Shown piece by piece: positions 24,302 through 63,861 of a stretch of 64,000 nucleotides of DNA (positions are counted from its first letter, which is position 1; each line of letters starts with the position of its first letter). The DNA is from Chitinophagaceae bacterium. GTDB lineage: Bacteria > Bacteroidota > Bacteroidia > Chitinophagales > Chitinophagaceae. The position numbers and the translations under genes were made by a program. A model generated the notes under the pieces. It saw only the letters and a program-made list of their open reading frames with translations, searched no databases and was not told where the DNA came from. Location: positions 1 through 64,000 of the forward strand of contig JADGPW010000122.1 of the NCBI GenBank assembly GCA_017882265.1, given 5' to 3'.

Positions 24302-24545
24302 ATCAGTCGGCAGTCTTGCAGTTTTGCAGTCAGGCAGTCGGCAGTTTGGCAGTCGGCAGTCGTCCAGTCGGCAGCCTGGCAGTTGCCATTTAGCAATTGA
24401 ATATTAAATGACTCAACAATTTATTAGAGGGCTGCTGACTGATAGACTGCAGACTGCTTACTGAGAGACTGCTGACTGCCGACTGCCCGGCTGCTGCCCC
24501 TCGGCTGCGCTCGGGGTGACAACGACTGCCGACTGCCCCACTGAC
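24302..24545. repeat. Very large palindrome, family F
   Basis: The 244-bp element has a left arm of CAGTCGGCAGTC words in near-tandem and a right arm of GACTGCCGACTGC words. A CCCTCGGCTGCGCTCGGGGT palindrome is nested in the right arm. It spans the whole gap between the thioredoxin gene and merR, reaching the merR stop codon. The same words are found inside birA. Confidence 0.88.
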
Positions 24546-25117
24546 TATAGGTTGGCTTTTAATTCAAGCAAAAACCCTTTGATCTTTTGGAGTGACTGTA
24601 TCAGTTCAAATTTCTCTTCTGCTTTTTTGTTTTTTTTCAGGTAATCTTTGGCGCCTTCAATAGTGAATTTCCGCCTGCGCAGCAGGTCATAGATCAGCAC
24701 CAGGTTCTTAATATCAATTGGGCGAAAAAAGCGGTCGCCTTTACGGTTCTTCCGGGGTTGCAGGATATCAAATTCAGTTTCCCAGTAACGGATCAGGGAT
24801 TGGTTTTCGCGGAACATTAGCGCCACTTCGCCGATGGAGTAGTATTGTTTCTTAAAAAGGATCTCATCTTCCGGTACCTGGATAAGATCGGCATTGATAG
24901 CGATCTCTTTTAATGACCGTCGCCCTCTTTTCCCTGCGGCCGGGGAAGGGACAACTGCAGGTTCTTCCTTTTTTATCTCCATGATGGATTCATTTACTTC
25001 TTTGTCTATGATCTCTTTTTCTTCCATAAGAACGGGAGAAGTAGTAGCCGGAGTATCTGCTGTGTCATCAGCACCTGAAAATTCAAATGTTATTTGTGTA
25101 AGTGGGTTGGGCATCAT
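24545..25117 (-). CDS. MerR-family transcriptional regulator
   Basis: About 190 residues. An acidic N-terminal third (many E/D, TPATTSPVLMEEKEIIDKEV) precedes a MerR-type winged helix: YYSIGEVALMFRENQSLIRYWE, then QPRKNRKGDRFFRPIDIKNL and RRRKFTIEGAKDYL. No metal-binding cysteines or effector domain are visible, so the signal is unknown. I start it at the ATG at 25117; the preceding codons run through the promoter element. The stop codon coincides with the end of the family F palindrome. Confidence 0.87.
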   Translation of the reverse strand: MMPNPLTQITFEFSGADDTADTPATTSPVLMEEKEIIDKEVNESIMEIKKEEPAVVPSPAAGKRGRRSLKEIAINADLIQVPEDEILFKKQYYSIGEVALMFRENQSLIRYWETEFDILQPRKNRKGDRFFRPIDIKNLVLIYDLLRRRKFTIEGAKDYLKKNKKAEEKFELIQSLQKIKGFLLELKANL

Positions 25118-25124
25118 TGCACTG

Positions 25125-25132
25125 CAAAGATA
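25125..25132 (-). promoter_or_regulatory. Putative merR promoter -7 element
   Basis: TATCTTTG on the minus strand ends 7 bp before the merR ATG, implying a leaderless or very short leader transcript. Confidence 0.5.
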
Positions 25133-25188
25133 CAAAGCCCGTTGTGTTTAAACGCAGCTATATCAAAGTGTGGAAAAGTTCAATTTAA

Positions 25189-34499: not shown

Positions 34500-34523
34500 T
34501 ATCAGATTTGAACTTTTGGAAAT

Positions 34524-34559
34524 AAAAAAAATCCTCCGCATTTGCGGAGGATTTTTTTT
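34524..34559. terminator. Bidirectional terminator between the tlpA-like and susD genes
   Basis: ATCCTCCGC pairs with GCGGAGGAT around ATTT, with A7 on one side and T7 on the other. It serves the plus-strand oxidoreductase gene and the minus-strand susCD operon. Confidence 0.88.
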
Positions 34560-34594
34560 ATTAAAAAATTCTTTTTGTATTTACAAGCAATTAA

Positions 34595-36106
34595 TCAATA
34601 GCCAGGGTTCTGAACTATATTCGGATTCGCATCCCTCTCCGCCTGTGGTATCGCAAATATTAATTGCGTATTAGCTGGAGTTACAGCTATAGTGGTTAAG
34701 GGGTTTTGATTTCTTGTTTTGGTCCAGCTCCTTTGAAGTCTTACGAGGTCCCAGAACCGGCTACCTTCAAATGCCAGTTCTTTCCTTCTTTCGGTAAGAA
34801 TATCTTCTAATACCTGGGCGCCGGCATTGGCATATCCCGCAAAGGCGGGGTCTCTTTGCTGGGCCACCTTGTTCAGGTAAAGGTTGGCATTAGGAATATC
34901 AGCAGTATTATAATAGGCCTCGGCCGCTATTAAAAGAACATCGGATAACCTGATGATCTTTGTATCGTCTTTATCAGCGCCATTGGCAGGGTTGGGATAT
35001 TTATAGCACAGGTAGATATTACCTGCCTGGCCGCTTCTGTAACCGGCAGGAGCCAGTGGCATTAATCCCCTTCTTACATCTGTGGCGGAATATAAATTAT
35101 ATAATTCCGCATTCCCTAAAATATCACCATATCCTCCGCCGACCTGCAGGTAAATGAAACCGATCTGGTCAAATCCATTATTGGAAAGAAGATCACTGCC
35201 CACTTCAAAAAATGTCTCATTTTTTGTGGAAGTCTGAACGCTAGGGCTAGCCCAATATCCCCCGGGAGAATACGTGTTCAATGCGCTGGCAGCTGAAGTG
35301 CCCCCTAATGAACCTGTTGGGCTTACATACGCAGCAGGAGCAAGTAAAACCCATCCACTGTTATTGATCACGTCAAGGGCCATGGCTTTTGCATTAACCC
35401 AATCACCCATATTCTGGTATACCCTAGCTTCCAATGCTCTCGCAGCATATTTGGAAAAATAAGCCGTGCCCCTGTAAACTGTCATTAAGGTATAGGCCCT
35501 TTCCAGATCACTGATGACCTGTGTGTATACCTGTTTTACAGTGCTGCGTGCAGGTTTAACTGTGGTAATGGTTGGATCAAAGGCCAGGTTGTCAGGTACA
35601 ATAGAAACACCCGGGTCATTTTGCCCCACCGTATAAGGATGACCGAAATTTCTGACCAGTTCAAAATACATTAATGCTCTTATGGCAAAGGCCTCTCCTG
35701 CATACTGGTTTGTATTAGTTGTACCTCCAAGACCCAGTCCGGCATTGATCACGTTATTGGCATTTTTTATAATCACATACGCATTAGGCCATATGGCTCC
35801 GGGATATGCATCTGCAGAAGTCGTAGTAAAATTATTTATACTAATATACCGGTTGGAATTGGAGGTGGTCACATATACATTATCGGCCATTAAGTCGCCT
35901 TTTAATGGTAAGGTGCGTCCAAACAGGTCAGTGTTTCTCAATTGGGAATAGACCCCATTCAATGCCACTGAAAGGTCGGCCTCTGATTTAATTGCGGTAG
36001 ACAGCGAAACCGCATTGTATGGATCCCTGGTCAAATAACTTTTTTTACACGAAGTAAAAAAAACCGCGATGACCAAAAAAACGAAAAGATTTATTTTATG
36101 TCTCAT
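34595..36106 (-). CDS. SusD/RagB-family nutrient-binding lipoprotein
   Basis: A 503-residue outer-membrane lipoprotein (signal MRHKINLFVFLVIAVFFTSC). The SusD N-terminal region (SEADLSVALNGVYSQLRNTDLFGR), TPR helices, and the C-terminal block ILTERRKELAFEGSRFWDLVR are all present. SusD proteins form the lid over their SusC partner and capture substrate. It starts 18 bp after the upstream susC. The substrate is unknown because no enzymes adjoin the pair. Confidence 0.93.
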   Translation of the reverse strand: MRHKINLFVFLVIAVFFTSCKKSYLTRDPYNAVSLSTAIKSEADLSVALNGVYSQLRNTDLFGRTLPLKGDLMADNVYVTTSNSNRYISINNFTTTSADAYPGAIWPNAYVIIKNANNVINAGLGLGGTTNTNQYAGEAFAIRALMYFELVRNFGHPYTVGQNDPGVSIVPDNLAFDPTITTVKPARSTVKQVYTQVISDLERAYTLMTVYRGTAYFSKYAARALEARVYQNMGDWVNAKAMALDVINNSGWVLLAPAAYVSPTGSLGGTSAASALNTYSPGGYWASPSVQTSTKNETFFEVGSDLLSNNGFDQIGFIYLQVGGGYGDILGNAELYNLYSATDVRRGLMPLAPAGYRSGQAGNIYLCYKYPNPANGADKDDTKIIRLSDVLLIAAEAYYNTADIPNANLYLNKVAQQRDPAFAGYANAGAQVLEDILTERRKELAFEGSRFWDLVRLQRSWTKTRNQNPLTTIAVTPANTQLIFAIPQAERDANPNIVQNPGY

Positions 36107-36124: not shown

Positions 36125-39100
36125 TTAGAAACCAATATTAACACCTACGGTGACAACCCTGTTATAAAAAAGGTTGAGGGCATTGATACCGTAAGAACCA
36201 GATGCGTTCGTATTACTGCTTCCTCCCTGTTCCGGATCAATCGTTAGGTTCTTATCGTATGTTTTTGTCCAAAGATTAGTTCCCCTGACATAAAAGTAAA
36301 AGCTACCCAGGTGGAGTTTGCTGGCTAAACCTTTATCAATCCGGTACCCGATGGAAAGATTACGTAACCGGATAAAATCACCTTTATAGAGGAATCTTGT
36401 GGAAGTAGCATTGGAAGAACTGTTTTGTACGGTAGCAGAAGAATTAGTGGCGCCATAGTATAACTTAGGCACATTGGTTATATCACCTGGTTTTGTCCAA
36501 CGCTGCAGGTTCAATGAATACTTGCCATAGGTTGGATTGGTTTCATCAGCCAGGAATGATCCCCACTGATCAAATACATAATTTCCATAATTGTAATAGA
36601 AGTCCGCCGTTACGCTCAAGCCCTTATATGTAAAGGTATTCGACACACCACCATAATATTTAGGGCTGGCTGATTTACCGGTACTATACCGTTGTGCCGG
36701 GTTAGCTACAGACGTATTGCTATAATTGGAAGTCTTCGCTGATTTGGTGCTATCCACCCACCATAGCGGAGCTCCAGTAGCAGGGTCTACGCCGGCCCAA
36801 TCGCGCATGTACCATGTATTGATATCAAGTCCTGGTCTGACGAGGAACACCCCATTGATGATCTGATTTTGCCCCGGGGGCAGAGTCTTCATTTCATTTT
36901 TATTATGTGTAAAATTAAAACTCAGATCCCATGTAAAATTCTTGGTAGAAATGGGTGTCGCATTGACCGTGATCTCAAATCCTTTATTCTCGAGTTTACC
37001 CACGTTTTCTGTGATTGTGCTAAAGCCGGATACCTGGGATAGAGGAACGCCAAATAATAGACGGCTACTAACCCTGTCGTAATAATCAAGCGTGAGATTT
37101 AACCTGTTTTTAAACATGGTGATATCTGTGCCGACATCAAACTGATTATCTTTTTCCCAGGTGAGAGAAGTATTTCCTAATGTGCTAAATGTTCCGCCGG
37201 GATTGTTATTATAATTGGCACCAAAACCAACGGTTTGTTTTGCAATATAATTACTAACTTCTGCATTACCGGCACTTCCATAAGAAGCTCTCAGTTTCAG
37301 GTCGGATATGGTTTTACTTCCCTGTAAAAAAGATTCCTTACTTATATTCCATGCTAAACTGGCTGAAGGAAAAGTGCCATACTGGTTTTGAAGTCCAAAC
37401 CGGGATGAACCATCTCTTCTTAATGTTCCTGCCAAAATATATTTCCCTTTATAATTAAAGGCAAGATTACCAAACATGGAGGCAAAAGAATAATCTGAAC
37501 CCGTGGCACTACCAATCGTTACAGTAGAGGCATTGGTAGATAGCGGCAGACGAGGTGTGGAATAGTTTTGAGATTGAGCGGAAATAAAGTATCCCTTGGA
37601 AAGAATGGCTTCCGTGGCCACTTTAGCATCCATGGTCAGGTTTTTATTTTTCGTCAGGTTGGCATGGTAGTCAAGTTGGTTGACAAAATCATAAAGGAAA
37701 TACCTGGTATAATAAGTATAACCCCTGCCTTTAGCTGCTACTCCATCTCCATGGGCCGGATTATCATACTGGAATTCTTCCAGGCTAGTATATTGTAAAC
37801 CTATTTTACTGGTAAAACTTAAATTATCCAGTATATTATATTTTCCCTGGGCGCTGCCTATTCCGCTAAATGTGCTTAAACTATGAATATTAGCCGCCGC
37901 CAGGTATAAAGGATTATAGACACTGGAGAAATCCTTTGAAGCCGAACTGATATTAAAACTGCCATCGGGATTAAAAGGATTCTGCATCGGTCTCAGAAAG
38001 AAAGCAGTCAATACCGGGTTGGCAAACTGGCTTCCATTACTTAAAACAGCATCTTCTTTTGAATAGGTCGGAGCCAGCCGTATAGAAAAATTAAGCTTCT
38101 TATTTGCCGTATGATCAATATTGATAACTGTAGAATAACGTGTCAGGTCGGAAGCAATGGTGGATGCTTCCTGTTTAAAATAACCGCCTGAGATATAGAA
38201 TTTGGTTTTTTCATCTCCTCCGGAAGCCGATATGTTATATTGCTGTTGAGTACCACTCCTGGTTACCATGTGTAACCAATCGATATCCGTAGCCCCGGTT
38301 GTATCGCCAAAGGTGGCAAGATTAGAATTCAGGCCTGCCTGCGTACCGCCGGCGTTAATATAAGATTCCTTAAATAACATGAGCCATTGGGATGAGTTTA
38401 ACGCTTTCGCAGTAGGAGGTATATCACCCAATTTATTATTTCCTACTTCGGCGCTAAAGTTAAATTGAGTTTTACCGGCTTTACCTTTTTTAGTAGTAAT
38501 GACAATTACTCCATTTCCACCTCTCGAGCCATAAATAGCGGTAGCGGCAGCATCTTTTAATACAGTGACTGATTCGATATCGTCCGGGTTAATATTGGAC
38601 AATACATTAGATGTTGTGGTCAGTCTGGAGAGGTCTCCGGAGTTGATCTGGATACCATCTATAACATATAAGGGTTGTGAGCTTACAGAAAACGAACCAG
38701 TACCCCTGATCCTGATCTGTTGATTGGCTCCCGGTTGGCCACTAAAAGTTTGTGATTGCAAACCAGCCACTTTTCCCTGCAGGATCTGGTCAACAGAAGT
38801 AAACGGAACATTGGCCACTTTATCACCTCCGACTTTTGAAACGGCGGAGGTAACATCCGATTTCTTTTGTGTGCCATATCCCACCACTACCACTTCCTGT
38901 AGCGTACTGGCTGAAGCTTTTAATGTGGCATTGATCATTGATTGAGATCCAATAGCAACTTCCTGGGGTGTCATATCTGTTGATGAAAAGACAAGGTCTT
39001 TTGCATTCGCAGGTAGCGTGATGGAATAGGTACCATCTGCTTTTGTGATTGTACCTACAGTAGTTCCTTTTACAAGTACCGAGACATTTGGAAGGGGATT

Positions 39101-39199
39101 ACCCTGTTCATCGGTAACCTTACCGGTGACCGTACGTTGTGCCAGTGCCTGCGCAGCAAAGAACACAACACCCCAAAGCAGTAAGAAAAATTTTCTCAT
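36125..39199 (-). CDS. SusC/RagA-family TonB-linked outer-membrane transporter
   Basis: A 1024-residue receptor with signal peptide ending ALAQ, a carboxypeptidase-D-like domain (RTVTGKVTDEQGNPLPNVSV), a TonB-box/plug region (EVVVVGYGTQKKSDVTSAVS, IRIRGTGSFS, PLYVIDGIQI, DIESVTVLKDAAATAIYGSR) and a ~22-strand barrel ending VTVGVNIGF. Together with the following susD it imports an oligomeric nutrient. The first residues and domain order closely match the second SusC at 41138, suggesting an ancient duplication. A shared 50-bp element lies about 240 bp upstream. Confidence 0.95.
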   Translation of the reverse strand: MRKFFLLLWGVVFFAAQALAQRTVTGKVTDEQGNPLPNVSVLVKGTTVGTITKADGTYSITLPANAKDLVFSSTDMTPQEVAIGSQSMINATLKASASTLQEVVVVGYGTQKKSDVTSAVSKVGGDKVANVPFTSVDQILQGKVAGLQSQTFSGQPGANQQIRIRGTGSFSVSSQPLYVIDGIQINSGDLSRLTTTSNVLSNINPDDIESVTVLKDAAATAIYGSRGGNGVIVITTKKGKAGKTQFNFSAEVGNNKLGDIPPTAKALNSSQWLMLFKESYINAGGTQAGLNSNLATFGDTTGATDIDWLHMVTRSGTQQQYNISASGGDEKTKFYISGGYFKQEASTIASDLTRYSTVINIDHTANKKLNFSIRLAPTYSKEDAVLSNGSQFANPVLTAFFLRPMQNPFNPDGSFNISSASKDFSSVYNPLYLAAANIHSLSTFSGIGSAQGKYNILDNLSFTSKIGLQYTSLEEFQYDNPAHGDGVAAKGRGYTYYTRYFLYDFVNQLDYHANLTKNKNLTMDAKVATEAILSKGYFISAQSQNYSTPRLPLSTNASTVTIGSATGSDYSFASMFGNLAFNYKGKYILAGTLRRDGSSRFGLQNQYGTFPSASLAWNISKESFLQGSKTISDLKLRASYGSAGNAEVSNYIAKQTVGFGANYNNNPGGTFSTLGNTSLTWEKDNQFDVGTDITMFKNRLNLTLDYYDRVSSRLLFGVPLSQVSGFSTITENVGKLENKGFEITVNATPISTKNFTWDLSFNFTHNKNEMKTLPPGQNQIINGVFLVRPGLDINTWYMRDWAGVDPATGAPLWWVDSTKSAKTSNYSNTSVANPAQRYSTGKSASPKYYGGVSNTFTYKGLSVTADFYYNYGNYVFDQWGSFLADETNPTYGKYSLNLQRWTKPGDITNVPKLYYGATNSSATVQNSSSNATSTRFLYKGDFIRLRNLSIGYRIDKGLASKLHLGSFYFYVRGTNLWTKTYDKNLTIDPEQGGSSNTNASGSYGINALNLFYNRVVTVGVNIGF

Positions 39200-39235: not shown

Positions 39236-39307
39236 TCCTGAGCCTGGCGAAGGATGAACTTATCGAAGGATGAGCCTATCGAAAGATGACCTTTCTAAGC
39301 ATCAGGA
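39236..39307. repeat. Word-type repeat, family L
   Basis: TCCTGAGCC and ATCAGGA edges enclose tandem words GGCGAAGGATGA, ATCGAAGGATGA and ATCGAAAGATGA. It lies 37 bp upstream of the first susC, within its probable leader. Confidence 0.6.
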
Positions 39308-39440
39308 GCTTTGAAATTAATTAACCTTACACAAAGAAATCAAATATTTTTTCAATATTTGAAAATTCAGTCTTTTAGATGATTGTTAGCCTTAATCCTG
39401 GTTGCGACCCCTTGTTTTATGGACAGTCTTTCAACTCCTT

Positions 39441-39490
39441 TTGCTGCATACAACTTCGCTTTTGAGCTCTGTTATATAGAGTAAATATAC
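39441..39490 (-). promoter_or_regulatory. Conserved element upstream of susC, copy 1
   Basis: Aligned without gaps to 44488-44537, 38 of 50 positions are identical, with exact blocks TTGCTGCATA, TTG, GTTATAT and GTAAATATA (plus-strand reading). On the minus strand it contains TATATTTA, a near match to the -7 consensus. It is probably the operon promoter or an adjoining control site. Confidence 0.6.
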
Positions 39491-39588
39491 TAAAACCAGC
39501 TATTTCTGCTTCACCGGGTTGAATTTAAACGGGTAAGGACTGGAAAGGGTTGCCAGTGGAAATGGAAGGCCCCAATTTGAATTGAAAA

Positions 39589-39613
39589 GAGGCGGTCCTT
39601 TTGGAACCGCCTC
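39589..39613 (-). terminator. Terminator of the second susCD operon
   Basis: GAGGCGGT pairs with ACCGCCTC around a 9-nt loop; on the minus strand it is followed by CTTTTC. It lies 30 bp beyond the susD stop. Confidence 0.65.
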
Positions 39614-39642
39614 CTTTTTAAAAGGAAACTTTGGCCAGATTA

Positions 39643-41106
39643 TTAATTATCAACCATTAAATGATTTAGTGACATTTCATCCGAAGATATCGGCCAGATA
39701 TATCCTTGTTCCGTGGGTCCTTTTGCCAGGATAGAACCTTTTGCCGGAATGGTCTGTAAAAGACGCATCAGGTCACCGTTTCTCAATCCTTCACCTAAAA
39801 ACTCGATCCTTCTTTCCAGTAAGATGGCGTCAGCTAAAGCCTGCGGGGTTGCCGCCACAATGGTGGTGGTAGGATCAGAGCGTTGACGTACAGCGTTCAC
39901 CAATAACAATCCTCTTGGATCAACCGCTGCATTTGTCCTTGCCAATGCTTCAGCAAGGTTCAGCAGCACTTCTGAATAACGGATCACCTGGGGGAAATCG
40001 GTATAAGGAGAAACTGCCGGGTATTTAGTGTTAAGATAGGGTTTACCTGAAACGGTTGCATTAAAACTTCTTCGCCTGTCAGTAGCCAGCCATCCGGCAT
40101 TGGCGATGATGCCGCTTGGATTAAGAGAAAATTCGCCATTCCCTGTCGTTTTTGAATAATAGAATCCAAGTTGATTTTGCGTACCCGGGTTATCACCTGC
40201 CGTTGTGGACATAGGAAGTGCGAAAATAGACTCTGTTGTATTATAATTCGGTTTAAAGACATTGGTGATATCAGCCTGCAATGCATGCGGAACTCCTGAA
40301 GTGGCAGTGAACGGAGCCCCGACAGATACGATCTTATTTGCTTCTGTGATCACATTGGCATATTTCTGCATGCTCAGGTATACCCTTGTTTTTAATGCAA
40401 TAGCTGTATTGCGGTGTGCTCGGGTGGTTCTGAGTGTGGCTTGAGTTGCACCGGCGGGATAATCTAAAGGTAAATTGGTTTCTGCAAAATCCAGGTCGCT
40501 GATTATCTGTGTATAAATATCGGCAACGGAACTTCTGGCCAGGTCAGAAAAACCTGAGCCCTTGATGCCTGTCAAACGAAGAGGCAGACCTGGTTTACTT
40601 CCATTTCCATCCGCATAAGGCCGGGCATAGAATTGGAGCAGGCTATAATAACATAATGCCCTTACCAGTTTGGCTTCTCCAAGATAATTAGCCGCCAGGG
40701 CTGCGCCTACAACGGTTGTACCTTTTGCCGCCATACCATCAATAAAAACATTGCAAAGATTGATCACATAATAAGCCTGCGACCACATATTCTTTACAAA
40801 ATTCTGTGAAGTGCCGGTAGGGTTTAATGTCCATACATCAGCGCCGGTAACCAGGTTAGTCGTTTCATTGATAAATTCTTCAGCCCTGATATCGCCGGCA
40901 ATACTGTATCTCCCTCCCCAGAAATTACCGTTTTTTAATGCGGAATACATAGCGACTACCTGATTAAAAACCCGGGCAGGAGTATCAAATGCGGTAACAT
41001 CCGCGATCACGGTTTGGGGAATGGGACTTAAATAATTCTTATGGCAGGAACTACCCATCATCCCGAACAAACCCAGTGTGATGATATATTTAAATTGCTT
41101 TTTCAT
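39643..41106 (-). CDS. SusD/RagB-family nutrient-binding lipoprotein
   Basis: A 487-residue lipoprotein (lipobox GSSC) with RVFNQVVAMYSALKNGNFWGGRY, the helical LVRALCYYSLLQFYARPYADG block and the terminal LLERRIEFLGEGLRNGDLMRLL motif. It starts 31 bp after its susC. It shows low similarity to the first SusD, so the two pairs probably take up different ligands. Confidence 0.93.
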   Translation of the reverse strand: MKKQFKYIITLGLFGMMGSSCHKNYLSPIPQTVIADVTAFDTPARVFNQVVAMYSALKNGNFWGGRYSIAGDIRAEEFINETTNLVTGADVWTLNPTGTSQNFVKNMWSQAYYVINLCNVFIDGMAAKGTTVVGAALAANYLGEAKLVRALCYYSLLQFYARPYADGNGSKPGLPLRLTGIKGSGFSDLARSSVADIYTQIISDLDFAETNLPLDYPAGATQATLRTTRAHRNTAIALKTRVYLSMQKYANVITEANKIVSVGAPFTATSGVPHALQADITNVFKPNYNTTESIFALPMSTTAGDNPGTQNQLGFYYSKTTGNGEFSLNPSGIIANAGWLATDRRRSFNATVSGKPYLNTKYPAVSPYTDFPQVIRYSEVLLNLAEALARTNAAVDPRGLLLVNAVRQRSDPTTTIVAATPQALADAILLERRIEFLGEGLRNGDLMRLLQTIPAKGSILAKGPTEQGYIWPISSDEMSLNHLMVDN

Positions 41107-41137
41107 TGTTGCTGTTTTTTTAAGTTAACAGGTTAAT

Positions 41138-44100
41138 TTAAAATCCCACGTTTAAGCCTATCGTAATGGTCCGGCCATTGGCGATGGTATTTCTGTCAAT
41201 ACCCTGAGCCTGATTAGAACCAGCCCCATTGGACGAAACTTCAGGATCAGGTCCCGGGTATTTTGAGAAGATGGCTAAATTCTGACCGCTTACATAAAAC
41301 CTGGCTGAGCTGATCTTAACCTTACTAATGATCTTGCTGGGAATATTATAGCTAAGGGTAATGTCCTTCAGTTTTACAAAATTTCCTGTAAACATATTAT
41401 AATCCATCGGCAGGCCCGAACCATTGGAGACATTGTCCCCATAAACCGGCCGGGGAACCGTGGTTACATCACCTGGTTTTTTCCAGGCGGTCAACACATC
41501 TATGGCATTGTTCCAAAAACGCTGATCATGCAAACCTGCATTGGATCCATAATACACATCAAATCCAAACTGGTAAGTAAACAATACGTTCAGCTCGATA
41601 TTCTTATACCGGAAAGTATTATCCCATCCACCGATCTGTTTGGGTATAGTATTGCCCACCATAACACCATCCTTTGCCTGGGTGAGACCGACCGCTACGC
41701 CGTTTTCTTTGTATTGGGTTCCATCAGGATTTGTCCACTGGAACTGACCTGCAGGAACATAGAATTGATAAAGTACCGGCTGGCCAGCTTTATTTAATAA
41801 TATCCTTCTGCCTGTTGCGGGATCAACGCCCCCGGAACGTACCAGCCAAAGATAACCTATGGAATAACCAGGAGCCGTGCGGCTGACTGTTTCAAGCGAT
41901 GAAGTAGAACTCAGTAATTCGGTTAAACCAGGAGCTAGCGATGTCACCATATTTTTATTATCGGAAAAGTTCAACGTAGAGGTCCAGCTAAAATCCTTTG
42001 TTTTAATCGGCATACCGCTAAGTTGCAGTTCAATACCCTTATTGTACATCGTACCGACATTCTCAGGTACGCTGCTTGGTACCCCGGCAGAAGGTGACTG
42101 GGGAACATTCAATATAAGATCGGTTATGTTATTTTTATAATAAGTAAAATCAACTGTTAAACGGTCTTTGAATAAACCAAAAGAAGTTCCTATATCTGTT
42201 TTAGCACTTGTTTCCCATTTTAAGTTGGGATTACCAGCCGCGTTATATATCAAGGTAGGAAGTCCGCCATATAATCCTGATCCATAAGTGGAAAAAGTAG
42301 CATAATCGCCAATGCCGCCGGTATTTCCTACTGTTCCATAACTTCCACGTATCCTGAAGCTGCTGAATAGTTTACCTATGCTGGAGTTTTGCCAGAAATT
42401 TTCTTTAGCAACTTCCCAACCGGCAGAAGCCCCCCAGAAAACATGTGATTTTGCTCCAAGGGCTGAATATTTATCCTGCCGCAGATTTGCGCTAAATAAA
42501 TATTTTTTCTTATAATCATAATTCAACCGGCCAAACCCGGAGGAAAGATAGTTTTCCCCGAAAGTTGCTCCTGCCGGATTATTGATCCCCCAACCTGCCT
42601 GTATCACCGTATAAACAGGATCGGATATATTCTGGCGATTTAATCCAAAGCCAACAGAAGTGCGCCTATCCTGTTCTTGACCTATCAGGGCGCTGATATT
42701 ATGCTTGCCTCCAAAACTGTAATCGAATTGGGCGGTATTATCCCATATCCATCTTTTATATTTCCCTTCCGTACTTGACGCATTACCCACAACAGAAAAA
42801 CCATCCCCATGAAGTGGCGTCTGAAATACTTCATTATCCACGAACAGGTAATCAACCCCATAAAGCGTCTTAAGTGTAAGCCAGTTGAATGGTTTTGCCT
42901 GTATGTAAATATTGGATTGAATATGATTGGTCTCACTATTCGAACGATTAAGATCCAGTAAAGGAACAGGGTTATAAAAGCCTACCGTTACTGTATTATT
43001 CATGGGGCCCACCACATTACTGGCATTTATATTATAGGTTCCGTTATTATTATAAGGAGAAACATTTGGAGCAGTGACCATAACGGTACGGCCTAAACCG
43101 GCAGTACCGAAAGCTTCACCGGATAATGATCCAGAAGCGGATGCCGCCAGGTTTTGCTCATTTGAATATGATAACTTGGCACCTACGGTCAGTATTTTAT
43201 TTACCCGGCTGTCAACATTGAGCAGCATATTGGCACGATTAAAGTCATTTTTTTTGATGATACCTTCCTGGTGCGTATAACCCGCGGAAAAATAATAGGT
43301 AGTATTTTCATTACCGCCCGCAATACTAAGGGTATTATCATGAGAGAAACCTTTGCGATAAACATAGTCCGCCCATTTTGTATCTATCGTATTTCCGTTT
43401 GCATCTGTAGCAAGGGCGAAATGAGTATATCCTGAACCTGCAGGATTTGTGGAATTTACACCGGGATTATTAGCAGCTGCCGCATTCTTATAATCGGTGT
43501 ATTGTTGTGCATTCATCACCTCAGGAACTCCATATACTTTTGTCCAGCCAACCGATCCGGTATAACTCACCCTGACTTTTCCTGCTTTGCCTTTTTTGGT
43601 GGTGATAAAGACAACACCATTAGCTGCCCGGCTTCCATAGATAGCCGTTGAAGCAGCGTCTTTGGCGATATCAATGGTTTCAATATCATTGGGATTGATA
43701 CTTGCCAGTGCATTACCCGCTGCATTGGTAGAGCTAAAATCTCCGGTCGGAGAAGGTACTCCGTCTACAACGATCAGCGGATAGGAACTTAAAGAGAGAG
43801 AATTGGTACCCCTGATCCTGAAAACAGGGGGTGTGTTTAAAACACCATTAGGCACAGTGATCTGCACACCTGTAGCACGGCCGGCTAATTCCTGTTCGAA
43901 ACTTTGAATAGGTTTATCTGCCAGAACAGGTCCTTTAACAGATGCAATATTACCCGTTAGTTCTTTTCTTTTCTGTGTGCCATAACCAACCACTACCACT
44001 TCAGACATTGTTTTGTCTTCGGCACGCAGGGTTACATCAACCATGTTGTTGTTGCCAATAACCATTTCCATGGTGGCCATGTCCACTGAAGAAAAAATAA

Positions 44101-44305
44101 GGGATTTTGCTTTGGCAGGAACCGTGATTGAATAGGAGCCATCGGCTTTAGTGGCAGTACCTATTGTCGTGCCTTTAACCACGACCGATGCATTGGCCAC
44201 GGGGCTTCCCTTTTCATCTGTCACTTTCCCGGTGACATTGTGCTGCGCGATTGCCTGAACAGCAAGGCATACTACTCCTAAAAGGAGTAAGAACAGTTTT
44301 CTCAT
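41138..44305 (-). CDS. SusC/RagA-family TonB-linked outer-membrane transporter
   Basis: A 1055-residue receptor with signal peptide ending AIAQ, carboxypeptidase-D-like domain (HNVTGKVTDEKGSPVANASV), plug (SEVVVVGYGTQKRKELTGNI, FRIRGTNSLSLSSYPLIVVD, DIETIDIAKDAASTAIYGSR) and barrel ending ITIGLNVGF. It is partnered with the following susD. No ECF sigma/anti-sigma pair, hybrid two-component regulator or glycoside hydrolase is present in the window. Confidence 0.95.
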   Translation of the reverse strand: MRKLFLLLLGVVCLAVQAIAQHNVTGKVTDEKGSPVANASVVVKGTTIGTATKADGSYSITVPAKAKSLIFSSVDMATMEMVIGNNNMVDVTLRAEDKTMSEVVVVGYGTQKRKELTGNIASVKGPVLADKPIQSFEQELAGRATGVQITVPNGVLNTPPVFRIRGTNSLSLSSYPLIVVDGVPSPTGDFSSTNAAGNALASINPNDIETIDIAKDAASTAIYGSRAANGVVFITTKKGKAGKVRVSYTGSVGWTKVYGVPEVMNAQQYTDYKNAAAANNPGVNSTNPAGSGYTHFALATDANGNTIDTKWADYVYRKGFSHDNTLSIAGGNENTTYYFSAGYTHQEGIIKKNDFNRANMLLNVDSRVNKILTVGAKLSYSNEQNLAASASGSLSGEAFGTAGLGRTVMVTAPNVSPYNNNGTYNINASNVVGPMNNTVTVGFYNPVPLLDLNRSNSETNHIQSNIYIQAKPFNWLTLKTLYGVDYLFVDNEVFQTPLHGDGFSVVGNASSTEGKYKRWIWDNTAQFDYSFGGKHNISALIGQEQDRRTSVGFGLNRQNISDPVYTVIQAGWGINNPAGATFGENYLSSGFGRLNYDYKKKYLFSANLRQDKYSALGAKSHVFWGASAGWEVAKENFWQNSSIGKLFSSFRIRGSYGTVGNTGGIGDYATFSTYGSGLYGGLPTLIYNAAGNPNLKWETSAKTDIGTSFGLFKDRLTVDFTYYKNNITDLILNVPQSPSAGVPSSVPENVGTMYNKGIELQLSGMPIKTKDFSWTSTLNFSDNKNMVTSLAPGLTELLSSTSSLETVSRTAPGYSIGYLWLVRSGGVDPATGRRILLNKAGQPVLYQFYVPAGQFQWTNPDGTQYKENGVAVGLTQAKDGVMVGNTIPKQIGGWDNTFRYKNIELNVLFTYQFGFDVYYGSNAGLHDQRFWNNAIDVLTAWKKPGDVTTVPRPVYGDNVSNGSGLPMDYNMFTGNFVKLKDITLSYNIPSKIISKVKISSARFYVSGQNLAIFSKYPGPDPEVSSNGAGSNQAQGIDRNTIANGRTITIGLNVGF

Positions 44306-44487
44306 GAGCGTTTGTTTTAGTTAGTATATGAATATAAGCAAAGTGTTTGTTTAAGGATCATACAATAGGAACCCCTAAACGAATACTTCAAAAAATACGA
44401 TTTTTTTGAAAACTATAGCCTTTTGATTAAAAAACCTTAACCTTCCAGTATAACCTTACTCTTTAAAAGACAGCACTATATTATTGT

Positions 44488-44537
44488 TTGCTGCATATAA
44501 CATCGTTATTGGCGTATGTTATATCCCGTAAATATAG
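44488..44537 (-). promoter_or_regulatory. Conserved element upstream of susC, copy 2
   Basis: Counterpart of 39441-39490. This copy also has a 9-bp inverted repeat, ATATAACAT and ATGTTATAT, separated by 12 bp. The distance to the susC start is about 185-230 bp, similar to copy 1. Confidence 0.6.
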
Positions 44538-44546
44538 AAAAATAAT

Positions 44547-46877
44547 TTATTTTTTTATCCGCACAAAAGAAATTAAAATGGAGGGTAAAAGTACCAGGTT
44601 GGTAAATGTAGCGGTGATCAATGTAAGCGAGGTTAGCCAACCCAGGGCCTTTGTACCGTCAAACCCGCTGAAACAAAAAATAATAAATCCGGCGATCAAC
44701 ACCAGTGAAGTGTAAAGAATACTGATACCGGTGCTATGTATGGTTTCAATAACAGTTCGCTTCTTGTCATAATTATATCGCGGCAGCTCCTGTTTGTAAT
44801 TCACCAGGAAGCGGATGGTTACATCAATTGCAATACCAAGAGCTACGCTAAAAACCAGTACTGTAGAGGGTTTTAGCGGAATGCCAACCCAGCCCATGAT
44901 CCCGGCGGTGATCAGGAGCGGAATGATATTGGGGATCAGGGAACAGACTAATATACGGGCCGAACGGAAAAGATAAAGCATACAAAGTGCGATCAGTAAA
45001 AAAGCCCATAAAATACTGTCTTTCAATCCGTGTATAATATACCGGTTACCTTCCACGAAAGTGACACTGGTGCCCGTTAATAAAACTTTGCAACTGTCAC
45101 AATTTGCCGGGTTAAACAACTGGTCGGCTCTTTTTTGAATACTATCTAAAATATGGGGCAGGCGTTTACTTCCCACATCTGCCATACTCACACTGATCCG
45201 GGCCTGTTGTTTGGTACTGTCTACAAAAGTGCTGATCAGTTTGGCAAACGAACTCCTGGCAGAACCGCTATCGCCGCGGAAATTCAGATACTCCGACATC
45301 CCCAACAGGTCATTTTGTGTGGGTAGTACATAATTAGTACTATCTCCATCAAAAAAAGCCTGTTTGGCGAATTTTAATCCTTCTACAATGCTTAAAGGCT
45401 TTGCAATATCCGGGATGGTAACAATAAACTGCGCTAATGAATCAATACGCTCCAGGTTTTTAAGGTTGCGGGTGACACCATACTTCTTTTTAGTATCTAC
45501 TACTATCTCCAGGGGCATCACCCCCTTGAAATTAGCATCAAAAAAGTGCAGATCAGTATAGAGCTTATCTTTCTTGGGCAGGTCGTCTACTATATAACCA
45601 ATGGTTTTCAACCTGGTTACTCCCATGATGGAAACAGCAATGATCACAATCGATACACCATAAATCAGTTTGCGATGATTGAGTGACCATCTTTCCAACC
45701 CTGCCAGCAACCGGTTGAGACCCCGGCTATCAAGGTACTTGGTCTGGCGGGATTTCGGCGGAGGTAAAAAACTTAATACAGAAGGAATAAAGACCAGCGA
45801 AATAAAGAACAAGACAAAAATATTACTGCCCGCCACGATGCCGAATTCTTTTAATATCTGACTTTGCGTAAAAGCAAATACTGCAAATCCAATGGCCGCC
45901 GCCAGGTTGCAAAACAGGGTCACAATTCCCATCCTGTCTACCATGGCTACAAGACTTTTTTTCTTGTCCCCGGTTAAATTATAAGCCGTATGAAATTTAT
46001 TAAGGAAATAAATACAATTTGGAATTCCTATCACCACGATCAGGGGAGGGATCAGGGCATTCAGAACGCTTATTTTATATCCAAGTAATTCGATAGTGCC
46101 AAAGCTCCATATAACGCCAAACATGACTACCGTTAACGATAGAAACATCGCGCTGAAAGAACGAAAGAACAATAATAAGATTATGGCTGAAAGTATAATA
46201 GAAGCAAGAATGAACAATCGCATTTCCCTGATAATTCTTACTGATAATTCGGTACGGATATGCGGCAGACCGCTTATATAAACAGGCAGACCATTTGTCT
46301 TCCCAAATTCATCCGCCATCTTGTTGATGGTATTTACAATCCCGATCCTGGCTTTGGAAGCCATCAGGTCCTTATTGATACGGACACCCATCAGCCACGC
46401 ATGTGTGACGGGATTATATAAAAGATTTTGGTAAAAAGGAAGATTCAGGAATGTTTTTGAGCCACTGTCAATTTCAGCCTGGGTAAGTAATCGGTCCGCG
46501 AAGATCGTATCAGCTTTCAGCTTTTCTGTTTCCGGTTGCTTTACCAGGTTGATGGCAGTGGGCATGGCAATAACATCATCTACACCGTTCACTTTTTTAA
46601 GGTCACGCAGGAGGGAAGCATAGGCATTGAATATTTTTGCTTCAAAGATTTTATTGGTTTGAATGCCAATGACAAGCAGATTGCCATCTTCCCCGAATTT
46701 TTTGCGAAACTCCTGGTAATCTTTGTATTTACGGTTATTCACAGGGATGGCCCTCGAAAAGTCGTTACTCAATTCCACTTTACTGGCATGGTAAGCCATA
46801 AAGCAGGTCAGCGCTGCAAGAATAAATAACAGCCAAATGCGGTATTTCAGAATAAATCGTCCAAGGCTCTCCCACAT
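44547..46877 (-). CDS. RND/MMPL-superfamily exporter
   Basis: About 776 residues with twelve predicted helices: one at the N-terminus, a large periplasmic loop, a five-helix bundle, then the second half repeating the pattern (ALCMLYLFRSARILVCSLIPN, shown in part as ALCMLYLFRSARILV; SVALGIAIDVTIRFLVNYKQE). The motif NALIPPLIVVIGIPNCIYFLN and DVTIRFL fit the MMPL/Patched-like exporters of lipids or hopanoids. The start at 46877 (MWESLGRFILKYRIW) is preferred to ATGs at 46925 and 46970, whose extensions add a spurious second helix and palindrome sequence. The substrate is unknown. Confidence 0.85.
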   Translation of the reverse strand: MWESLGRFILKYRIWLLFILAALTCFMAYHASKVELSNDFSRAIPVNNRKYKDYQEFRKKFGEDGNLLVIGIQTNKIFEAKIFNAYASLLRDLKKVNGVDDVIAMPTAINLVKQPETEKLKADTIFADRLLTQAEIDSGSKTFLNLPFYQNLLYNPVTHAWLMGVRINKDLMASKARIGIVNTINKMADEFGKTNGLPVYISGLPHIRTELSVRIIREMRLFILASIILSAIILLLFFRSFSAMFLSLTVVMFGVIWSFGTIELLGYKISVLNALIPPLIVVIGIPNCIYFLNKFHTAYNLTGDKKKSLVAMVDRMGIVTLFCNLAAAIGFAVFAFTQSQILKEFGIVAGSNIFVLFFISLVFIPSVLSFLPPPKSRQTKYLDSRGLNRLLAGLERWSLNHRKLIYGVSIVIIAVSIMGVTRLKTIGYIVDDLPKKDKLYTDLHFFDANFKGVMPLEIVVDTKKKYGVTRNLKNLERIDSLAQFIVTIPDIAKPLSIVEGLKFAKQAFFDGDSTNYVLPTQNDLLGMSEYLNFRGDSGSARSSFAKLISTFVDSTKQQARISVSMADVGSKRLPHILDSIQKRADQLFNPANCDSCKVLLTGTSVTFVEGNRYIIHGLKDSILWAFLLIALCMLYLFRSARILVCSLIPNIIPLLITAGIMGWVGIPLKPSTVLVFSVALGIAIDVTIRFLVNYKQELPRYNYDKKRTVIETIHSTGISILYTSLVLIAGFIIFCFSGFDGTKALGWLTSLTLITATFTNLVLLPSILISFVRIKK

Positions 46878-46942
46878 AGTAATAAAAAGAAATAGTAAAA
46901 CAGCAAAGAAAGGTAAAATTGTCATAGGGGTCAAAAGAAGAA

Positions 46943-47095
46943 GGAATGTCGAACAGATGAACCCACGCAATACTGCGGGGCAGGCAAGGAATTATGAACA
47001 GATGAAGTAATGCACGAATACAAAGGAAATCCGGGAATATAGGGAATGTACGGACTTCAGCGTTCTGAATTCCTTGTTCATCTGTTCGACATTCT
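46943..47095. repeat. Large palindrome, family B copy 5, with nested small palindrome
   Basis: Left arm GGAATGTCGAACAGATGAAC, right arm GTTCATCTGTTCGACATTC. A 23-bp GC-rich segment (CCACGCAATACTGCGGGGCA and three more bases) interrupts the left arm between GATGAAC and AAGGAAT. It separates the divergent RND and porZ genes. Confidence 0.88.
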
Positions 47096-61791: not shown

Positions 61792-63861
61792 CTAGGTGGA
61801 GACCTTTTTCTTACTTACAGCAATCCGATAAAGTATAAAACCCATCAGGGCAAAGAAGGCAACGCCCAGCCATTTGTACCCTTCGCCACCAAGTTTTTCT
61901 GTCAAACCGGGTTCAGCGCTAACTTTTCCCAATGAAGTATTAACACTGTCAATAGAAGATAAAGTGGCTACTATGACCCCGGCAATAGCGCCTCCTGCCA
62001 CCAACCCGGTGGCAAAGAGATTTCCTTTTCCAAGATCCTCCTCCTCAGGGGAAACAGATACATTTTTCTTTTTATTTCTCCATTCAGCAATGCCGCGGAT
62101 AGCGCCGCCAATAAATATGGGCAGGGTGGTGGAAAGCGGAAGATAAATACCGATTGCGAAACTCAGGGCTTTTATGCCGCAGAGTTCCATGACCACCGCG
62201 ATAAAAACTCCGACCAGCACAAACTGCCAGTCGAGATTAAAAGAAAGAATTCCTTTGATAAGCGTGGCCATTAAGGTCCCCTGTGGCGCAGGGAATTTAT
62301 CAGTACCAATAGCATGATGAATATTCTGGGCCAGCATTTCAGATGTGGGATGGTCCAGTATCTTAACAGTGGCACCGATGGCCAGCGAAGAAACAATGAC
62401 ACCTACAAATAAAGCGAGCTGCTGGTATTTTGGTGTAGCGCCAACAATATATCCTGTCTTCAGATCCTGTGAAGTGGCGCCCGCATTGGCCGCGGCAATG
62501 CAGATCATACCACCCACTACCAGGGCCATTGGTTCATAAAAATGCCCGGTCCATTTAACTGCGATGAAAATTAGACAGGTTCCCATCAGGGTGGCGATCG
62601 TCATACCACTGATCGGGTTATTGGAAGAACCAATGATCCCTACAATACGTGATGAAACGGTTACAAAGAAAGCTCCGAAGATGATCACCAATAACCCTAA
62701 CAGCAGCTTACTGCCAATACTACTGCCCGGGATAAGTGTATTTGGCATCAACGCAATCACGAGCAATAAAACAAGGCTACCAACACCTACCACTTTAATA
62801 GAAAGATCTCTCTCCGTTCTTGGCACTACCGTATCAGTAGCATCGCCGCGCTTTTTTAATGAACCAATACTTCCTTTAAAAGAAGAAATAATGGTTGGAA
62901 TTGTTTTGATCAGTGTAATAAATCCCCCGGCTGCTACTGCGCCGGCTCCGATCTGTCTTATGTATGCCCGGTAAATAGCGGTTGACCAGTCACCAAACCC
63001 CTGGGTGGCGGGGTTCCAGGCTCCTGGTCCTCCTGCTGTGTTTAGATCATGCAGGTAACCCAGTTTAACCAGTTGGGTTGCGATCACACTGCCATGGTCA
63101 TTTAATAAACTTGCTAACAATGGAGTAAAAACAAACCAGCTAAGAATACCACCTGCCACCAGTACACCGGCGATCTTTGGCCCGATAATATAACCCACTC
63201 CCATGTATTCCGGAGTTATTTCCCCGCTTACTTTCGCAGAAGGAAAGATCCTGTTTACTTGCCGGGTTGCAAAATCAGGGACATCTTTAATCACATGAAA
63301 TATTTTCTGGAGTATCGCATAACCAAAAGCGACCCCCAGACCCATAAAAGCAGTTTTGGCAAAATCACCGCCTTTTTCTCCCGCTTTTAAAACAGAAGCG
63401 CAGGCTGTACCTTCCGGATAAGGGAGTATGCCGTGCTCTTTAACGATCAGTGAACGGCGCAGGGGGATCATCATTAAGGTACCGAGAATACCACCAAAGA
63501 TGGCCAGTACAAGGATCGTAAAATAATTGAAGTAGTTAGCACTGCTGGCATCGCTCAAAAACAGGAACCCCGGCAGGGTGAATACCACACCTGCGGCAAT
63601 ACTTTCACCGGCAGAGCCCGTGGTTTGAATGATGTTGTTCTCTAAGATCGTTGTTTTAAGAAATCTTCTCCCCAGCGTTATTGCGATCACGGCTATGGGA
63701 ATGGATGCAGAAACAGAAAGACCAGCTTTTAATGTAAGGTACACGGTGGCCGCGCCAAAAATGATACCGAATACCGCGCCTACGATTACCGACTTGACCG
63801 TGAACTCTGCCATTTTTGTTTCCGGTGATACAAAAGGCTTAAAAGGAGGTTGCTCCGCCAT
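61792..63861 (-). CDS. OPT-family oligopeptide transporter
   Basis: A 689-residue polytopic protein with about 15-16 hydrophobic helices. Typical OPT features are TVKSVIVGAVFGIIFGAATVYLTLKAG (as VGAVFGIIFGAATVYLTLKAG reduced to FGAATVYLTLKAG), TTGSAGESIAAGVVFTLPG, LPYPEGTACASVLKAGE, and NAGATSQDLKTGYIVGATP. It imports small peptides or metal chelates. The ATG at 63861 (MAEQPPFKPFVSPET) is preferred over a 19-residue upstream extension that is hydrophobic and not conserved. It is flanked by hairpin terminators. Confidence 0.92.
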   Translation of the reverse strand: MAEQPPFKPFVSPETKMAEFTVKSVIVGAVFGIIFGAATVYLTLKAGLSVSASIPIAVIAITLGRRFLKTTILENNIIQTTGSAGESIAAGVVFTLPGFLFLSDASSANYFNYFTILVLAIFGGILGTLMMIPLRRSLIVKEHGILPYPEGTACASVLKAGEKGGDFAKTAFMGLGVAFGYAILQKIFHVIKDVPDFATRQVNRIFPSAKVSGEITPEYMGVGYIIGPKIAGVLVAGGILSWFVFTPLLASLLNDHGSVIATQLVKLGYLHDLNTAGGPGAWNPATQGFGDWSTAIYRAYIRQIGAGAVAAGGFITLIKTIPTIISSFKGSIGSLKKRGDATDTVVPRTERDLSIKVVGVGSLVLLLVIALMPNTLIPGSSIGSKLLLGLLVIIFGAFFVTVSSRIVGIIGSSNNPISGMTIATLMGTCLIFIAVKWTGHFYEPMALVVGGMICIAAANAGATSQDLKTGYIVGATPKYQQLALFVGVIVSSLAIGATVKILDHPTSEMLAQNIHHAIGTDKFPAPQGTLMATLIKGILSFNLDWQFVLVGVFIAVVMELCGIKALSFAIGIYLPLSTTLPIFIGGAIRGIAEWRNKKKNVSVSPEEEDLGKGNLFATGLVAGGAIAGVIVATLSSIDSVNTSLGKVSAEPGLTEKLGGEGYKWLGVAFFALMGFILYRIAVSKKKVST

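Follow-up and report, generated by a model that had tools for sequence, protein, structure and literature searches.

A conserved two-box, promoter-like motif upstream of two adjacent susCD operons in a Chitinophagaceae bacterium

Several types of promoter have been described in the Bacteroidota, and they are the closest points of comparison for a two-box motif, GCAGCA-N16-TGTC, that precedes two adjacent susCD operons in a Chitinophagaceae bacterium (GenBank assembly GCA_017882265.1, contig JADGPW010000122.1). The window here is the whole stretch of DNA that was analyzed, the first 64,000 nucleotides of that contig, and statements on published systems are limited to parts of the cited papers. 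The SM6 promoters of Flavobacterium psychrophilum are of the extracytoplasmic function (ECF) type and carry CGT in the -10 region (PMC9723704). Like the motif here, they come from a member of the Bacteroidota, are of an alternative-sigma type, and have a short GC-containing box in the -10 region, and some SM6 genes encode outer membrane or type IX secretion system functions; however, our box is TGTC rather than CGT, no GCAGC box is given for SM6 in the text covered, and SM6 targets other genes (PMC9723704). The PM2 (-30/-10) promoters of Bacteroides thetaiotaomicron have been proposed for the ECF sigma factors SigW-1 and SigH-1 (PMC7366714, PMC12596196), and in Bacteroides an ECF sigma factor acts on a polysaccharide utilization locus (PUL) from a distance (PMC12596196). 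PM2 resembles our motif in having two boxes, with TGTT near -10, and in the action of an ECF sigma factor on a distant PUL, as would be the case here. It has been described as nearly palindromic at -30/-10, with a link to oxidative stress, and no GCAGC box is mentioned in those parts of the papers (PMC7366714, PMC12596196). The SigP target motif of Porphyromonas gingivalis also belongs to an ECF sigma factor of a Bacteroidota member, although its A-rich consensus, C(T)AAA(G/C/T)A(T)A(C)T(A/G)A, bears no resemblance to the motif here (PMC4800418). Finally, the housekeeping promoter read by sigma-ABfr consists of a -7 box, TAnnTTTG, and a -33 box, TTTG (PMC7366714); TATATTTA, present in both of our leaders, fits the -7 box at 7 of 8 positions, whereas the conserved pair GCAGCA-N16-TGTC does not fit. 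A GCAGC/TGTC promoter was not found in the open-license literature searched, which is not proof of absence, and the portion of PMC10994844 covered has nothing on such boxes.

The starting point was a 50-bp match between the leaders of the two susC genes, whose start codons lie at 39199 (operon 1) and 44305 (operon 2). The original prediction placed it correctly, in its coordinates as in its distances to the susC starts: 39441-39490 and 44488-44537 are identical at 38 of 50 positions without gaps, while the next-best 50-mer in the window reaches 28. Local alignment of leader against leader scores 48, compared with a maximum of 37 in 5000 dinucleotide shuffles. Both blocks lie on the minus strand, which is the coding strand of both susC genes, and the likeness extends beyond the 50 bp up to the start codon, with a near-identical start region. 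The large coding divergence that had been claimed is true of the whole SusC proteins (36% identity) and less so of the first signal-peptide codons. The 50-bp match is in fact two things, the first box of the two-box motif and a half made up of an AT box and a stem-loop. The TTGCTGCATA end of the block (on the susC strand, TATGCAGCAA) contains GCAGCA, the first box; TGTC, the second, lies outside the block, 17 nt past GCAGC in both leaders. In operon 1 the motif spans 39422-39447 (GCAGCA 39442-39447, TGTC 39422-39425) and in operon 2 it spans 44469-44494 (GCAGCA 44489-44494, TGTC 44469-44472), both exact matches with an identical 16-nt spacer, so that GCAGCA-N16-TGTC can equally be written GCAGC-N17-TGTC. 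GCAGC begins 248 nt before the ATG in operon 1 and 189 nt before it in operon 2. When the two copies are compared, TGCAGCAAA is identical at 9 of 9 positions, the next 14 spacer bases at 3 of 14, and the last five at 4 of 5.

The same two boxes recur upstream of the syntenic susC genes of relatives. Orthologous loci were anchored on the RND-transporter gene directly upstream of operon 2, which, at the chosen cut-off, had a match in 340 of the 394 genomes, and the motif was first spotted by reading the DNA downstream of the 30 best RND matches, where GCAGCA, 16 nt, and TGTC appeared in many. Together, 80 fetched loci and 7 that had been fetched earlier or came from the window make 87, of which 66 had a recognized SusC and gave 98 leaders; the 21 loci without a recognized SusC gene were excluded from the counts. 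GCAGC-N16/17-TGTC is present in 55 of these 98 leaders (47 N17 and 8 N16), compared with 0.09 on average and at most 2 in 100 sets of shuffled leaders and 1 of 98 on the opposite strand. The positive leaders belong to 45 of the 66 genomes and to 27 genera, all of the same taxonomic family. When all pairs of 4-mers with gaps of 8 to 24 are ranked, CAGC-17-TGTC comes first, ahead of AT-rich pairs. No position of the spacer exceeds 0.25 bit except the A directly after GCAGC, and the distance from motif to ATG varies from 70 to 248 nt. The leaders of SusC orthologues (48-62% identity) do not align as wholes with those of the window; only the two short boxes persist. A relaxed form (GCATC for the first box, GGTC or GGCC for the second), chosen after the variants had been inspected, is found in 65 of 98 leaders and once on the opposite strand. 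Thirty-two genomes have two leaders, and the motif is in both in 10, in neither in 13, in the second only in 7, and in the first only in 2 (hypergeometric p ~0.01, calculated by hand), a pattern that fits a shared, non-obligatory control. Among the variants seen, the leaders of three operon-1 susC orthologues from the genus of G024 (L067, L102, and L103) have the first box within a small hairpin, e.g., AATTGCAGCTTTTTGCAATT, followed by GTTAAC repeats, and the tandem operons of G260 share such a hairpin/GTTAAC leader with each other.

Specificity was assessed on several scales. Outside the scored leaders, the DNA of these loci (777,330 bases, searched on both strands) contains only 12 matches, of which 9 fall in open frames. 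Of these 9, one is 87 nt ahead of a SusC-like start overlooked by our script; of the other 3, one is ~410 nt ahead of a susC start. The window itself holds a third strict match (62398-62422), inside an open frame. The original prediction expected the motif to mark susC promoters generally, and this expectation is not borne out. None of the six other susC genes of this genome that exceed the family cut-off has the motif (the genome as a whole was not searched for it), and among 40 sampled susC genes, taken from an earlier protein search and not fetched with the locus, 2 have the strict and 3 the relaxed form. A general susC promoter is rejected on these two results. Among 13 further SusC loci, L012, L068, and L070 are positive, and the operon-1 SusC has L068 and L070 among its closest matches. 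The motif marks this group of susC genes rather than susC genes at large. Elsewhere in this genome (L038, ~1302-1327 on the gene strand), a strict match lies ~95 nt before a non-SusC gene of outer-membrane type and falls within a possible 36-codon frame.

The other half of the 50-bp match has a different history. The original prediction treated the 50 bp as a single element, and that does not hold, because about two thirds of it, the AT box and stem-loop, was found in this genome only. The AT box is TTTTAGTATATTTA in operon 1 (39482-39495) and TTTTTCTATATTTA in operon 2 (44529-44542). Between it and the first box lies a 33-nt stem-loop (39449-39481 and 44496-44528), identical in the two copies at 22 of 33 positions. 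The 9-bp inverted repeat predicted in copy 2 is indeed there (ATATAACAT/ATGTTATAT), within the stem-loop; that of copy 1 is imperfect and still pairs, as susC-strand RNA, via a G-U pair, and this one G-U change is weak support for pairing. In the close relatives G012 and G019 the stem-loop is absent from this place, and an AT box, TTTTAGTACwTTTA, runs directly into TGCAGCAAA. That both promoters of one genome have the AT box and stem-loop points to copying of one leader onto the other, which is the simplest account of an insertion at the same place in both. The stem-loop could possibly be a shared operator. When the 50-bp block was modeled as one motif (covariance model), the only matches in this genome were the block's own two copies; another five turned up across 294 family genomes, each of them inside an open frame. 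A pattern of AT box and stem-loop had 13 matches in 84,980 species, about the chance number as estimated by hand and most in open frames, and none in viral contigs, and Rfam has no match at the 50-bp element. As a family motif, the AT box with a TATAAC hairpin was rejected, with 21 matches in 394 genomes, fewer than in the reversed-pattern control, only five of them intergenic and two of those the window's own. A match in G024 was dropped as support because it belongs to a separate, dispersed family of 11-bp arrays. An attC-like site, DNA inversion, and a miniature inverted-repeat transposable element were likewise dropped, there being two direct copies only and no recombinase among the proteins scanned.

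We infer from the layout (two boxes on one strand, an unconserved spacer of 16-17 nt, TGTC near -10) that GCAGCA-N16-TGTC is a promoter of the ECF type. With a probability of roughly two in three, it would be the common promoter of both susCD operons, read by an alternative, ECF-type sigma factor encoded outside the locus. In this scheme GCAGCA would serve as the -35 box and TGTC as the -10 box, and RNA polymerase with the sigma factor would start both operons just after TGTC, leaving 5' leaders of very roughly 150-220 nt, so that the two uptake systems would be switched on together. In both promoters the AT box and stem-loop upstream are a lineage-specific addition; they may serve as an operator or be left over from a housekeeping promoter. 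Several features agree with an ECF promoter: the two boxes are short and on one strand, their spacing is nearly fixed at 16-17 nt, the spacer is unconserved beyond the A after GCAGC, and the -10 box, TGTC with its variants GGTC and GGCC, is of the GTC/CGT kind. The original prediction left the choice among a repressor, an activator, and an alternative sigma factor. Its claim of common regulation is supported, and of the three the strand-specific, spacing-locked motif of the orthologous leaders favors the sigma factor, most likely one encoded elsewhere.

A number of observations weigh against this. The first box, GCAGCA with its variant GCATC, lacks an AAC. An AAC core is usual in ECF -35 boxes, although the -35 box differs between ECF groups and is not strictly defining. 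The motif was also seen before it was tested. TGTC and the spacing were taken from the discovery genomes, where 33 of 36 leaders have the motif; in the remaining genomes 22 of 62 leaders have it, and this lower figure is the selection-free, held-out frequency. It applies to TGTC and the spacing, because the occurrences of GCAGC had been inspected across all leaders beforehand. The strict motif is missing from 43 of the 98 leaders and the relaxed form from 33, and relatives as close as G016 have no motif at the first operon. Finally, a TAnnTT abuts GCAGC in 11 of the 55 cases, compared with 0.96 in shuffles, and GCAGCA might therefore be where transcription from a housekeeping promoter begins.

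This last observation leads to the strongest of the rival explanations, namely, that the boxes are a bipartite activator or repressor site next to a housekeeping promoter with the sigma-ABfr box TAnnTTTG. Besides the abutting TAnnTT (e.g., TATTTTTG-T-GCAGCA in G286), it can draw on the AT box TATATTTA in both leaders of this genome. We consider it unlikely, because the motif shows neither the symmetry nor the repetition that a dimer site should have, 44 of the 55 cases lack the TAnnTT box, in this genome that box stands 34 nt away from GCAGC, and no conserved -33 TTTG was seen by eye. It is slightly less probable again that the boxes act in the mRNA leader, through an RNA-binding protein, a small RNA, or translation control, with transcription starting from the AT box upstream. 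The strand specificity of the motif and the long, hairpin-bearing leaders would suit such a role, and in Bacteroides there are precedents for susC leaders controlled at the RNA level, by DonS (PMC7366714, in the part covered) and by RbpB. Yet a locked gap of 16-17 nt of unconserved sequence is a typical trait of promoters rather than of unpaired RNA motifs; no pairing is possible between the two boxes, Rfam has no match there, and the distance to the ATG is anything but constant.

The two remaining alternatives concern the origin of the match. It might be the leftover of a recent tandem duplication of operon or leader, with no present function. The operons are adjacent, and the AT box and stem-loop, common to both and found nowhere else, do suggest leader copying; the SusC proteins tell otherwise. 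The two are far less like each other than each is like an orthologue in another genus (62% for P0002 in G016 and 61% for P0001 in G024), and so the susC pair are old paralogues. Together with the conservation of the boxes, and not of the spacers, in 27 genera, this already disfavors duplication as the source of the two boxes and makes it a very improbable reading. Least credible, and in our estimate nearly negligible, is the idea that the block belongs to a mobile element or a dispersed repeat of the kind seen in relatives as 11-bp TTATAT arrays. One of these arrays does lie beside TATTTAC in the leader of the G024 operon-1 orthologue, but the other G024 arrays read have no TATTTAC start, this genome has no such arrays, and with only two copies of the block in the genome a dispersed repeat is already contradicted.

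The genes around the motif are arranged as follows, with both operons and the transporter gene on the minus strand. In operon 1, susC (36125-39199) is followed by susD (34595-36106), and in operon 2, susC (41138-44305) by susD (39643-41106); both SusC match TIGR04056, and no STN domain was found in either. An RND/MMPL (HAE3-like) transporter gene (44547-46970) lies directly upstream, and AhpC-like and gatB genes lie on the other side of the two susCD pairs. Relatives keep parts of this gene order, RND-susCD(-susCD)-AhpC-gatB, with gene names assigned by eye from the protein starts. Among 20 proteins scanned around the locus there is no sigma factor, anti-sigma factor, FecR, or hybrid two-component regulator; a MerR-type regulator is encoded at 24545-25135, ~10 kb away. 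With no STN domain in either SusC and no FecR/ECF pair among the scanned proteins, the locus does not have the makeup of SusC-linked FecI/FecR cell-surface signaling. Each leader also has a second AT-rich hairpin (39340-39362, inverted repeat I16, and 44387-44410, inverted repeat I8), at corresponding places in the leader alignment. Leader 1 contains a 16-bp tandem repeat, CGAAGGATGAACTTAT, in 2.9 copies (39248-39293); it lies in the stretch responsible for most of the difference in length between leader 1 and leader 2. The AhpC-like and susD genes converge, and the perfect 20-bp inverted repeat with T-runs that lies between them (34521-34562) is probably a bidirectional terminator; it attracts many weak Rfam matches.

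The 11-bp arrays of relatives are a separate matter. They are intergenic runs of the unit STTATAYNNNN, seen at L067, L102, and L110-L139 (genomes G024, G143, G212, G260, G300, G107, G185, G352, G375, G376, G326, and others). In many of them, direct copies on one side face inverted copies on the other. Some genomes have large numbers of these arrays, whereas the reversed pattern, used as a control, is rare. Proteins of ~235-267 amino acids are encoded near a pattern match in five of the places fetched (L110, L112/L136, L128, L130, and L132), three of which are clear arrays, and several of these proteins look alike by eye, e.g., MARLTGxxPFTGSIG.... By analogy, we would guess at an association akin to that of repetitive extragenic palindromic elements with their transposases.

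In the usual view, susCD pairs are run by regulators encoded beside them. Here, a locus without a regulator of its own among the scanned neighbors carries a conserved promoter-like motif that recurs in 27 genera and differs from the Bacteroidota promoters of the papers covered. It is tempting to see in this an undescribed alternative sigma regulon that spans the family, in which GCAGCA-N16-TGTC promoters control the syntenic RND-susCD-susCD locus, STN-less SusCD pairs without a local sigma/anti-sigma pair serve a conserved envelope function under distant control instead of forming a glycan-specific PUL, and the stem-loop upstream of both promoters is an added control in this lineage; we regard this broader picture as tentative, with somewhat less than an even chance of being right. 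The gene for an ECF sigma factor often carries the same promoter that the factor reads. The motif is a handle for finding its sigma factor and the rest of the regulon, and it could serve to predict susCD pairs that would be expressed together.

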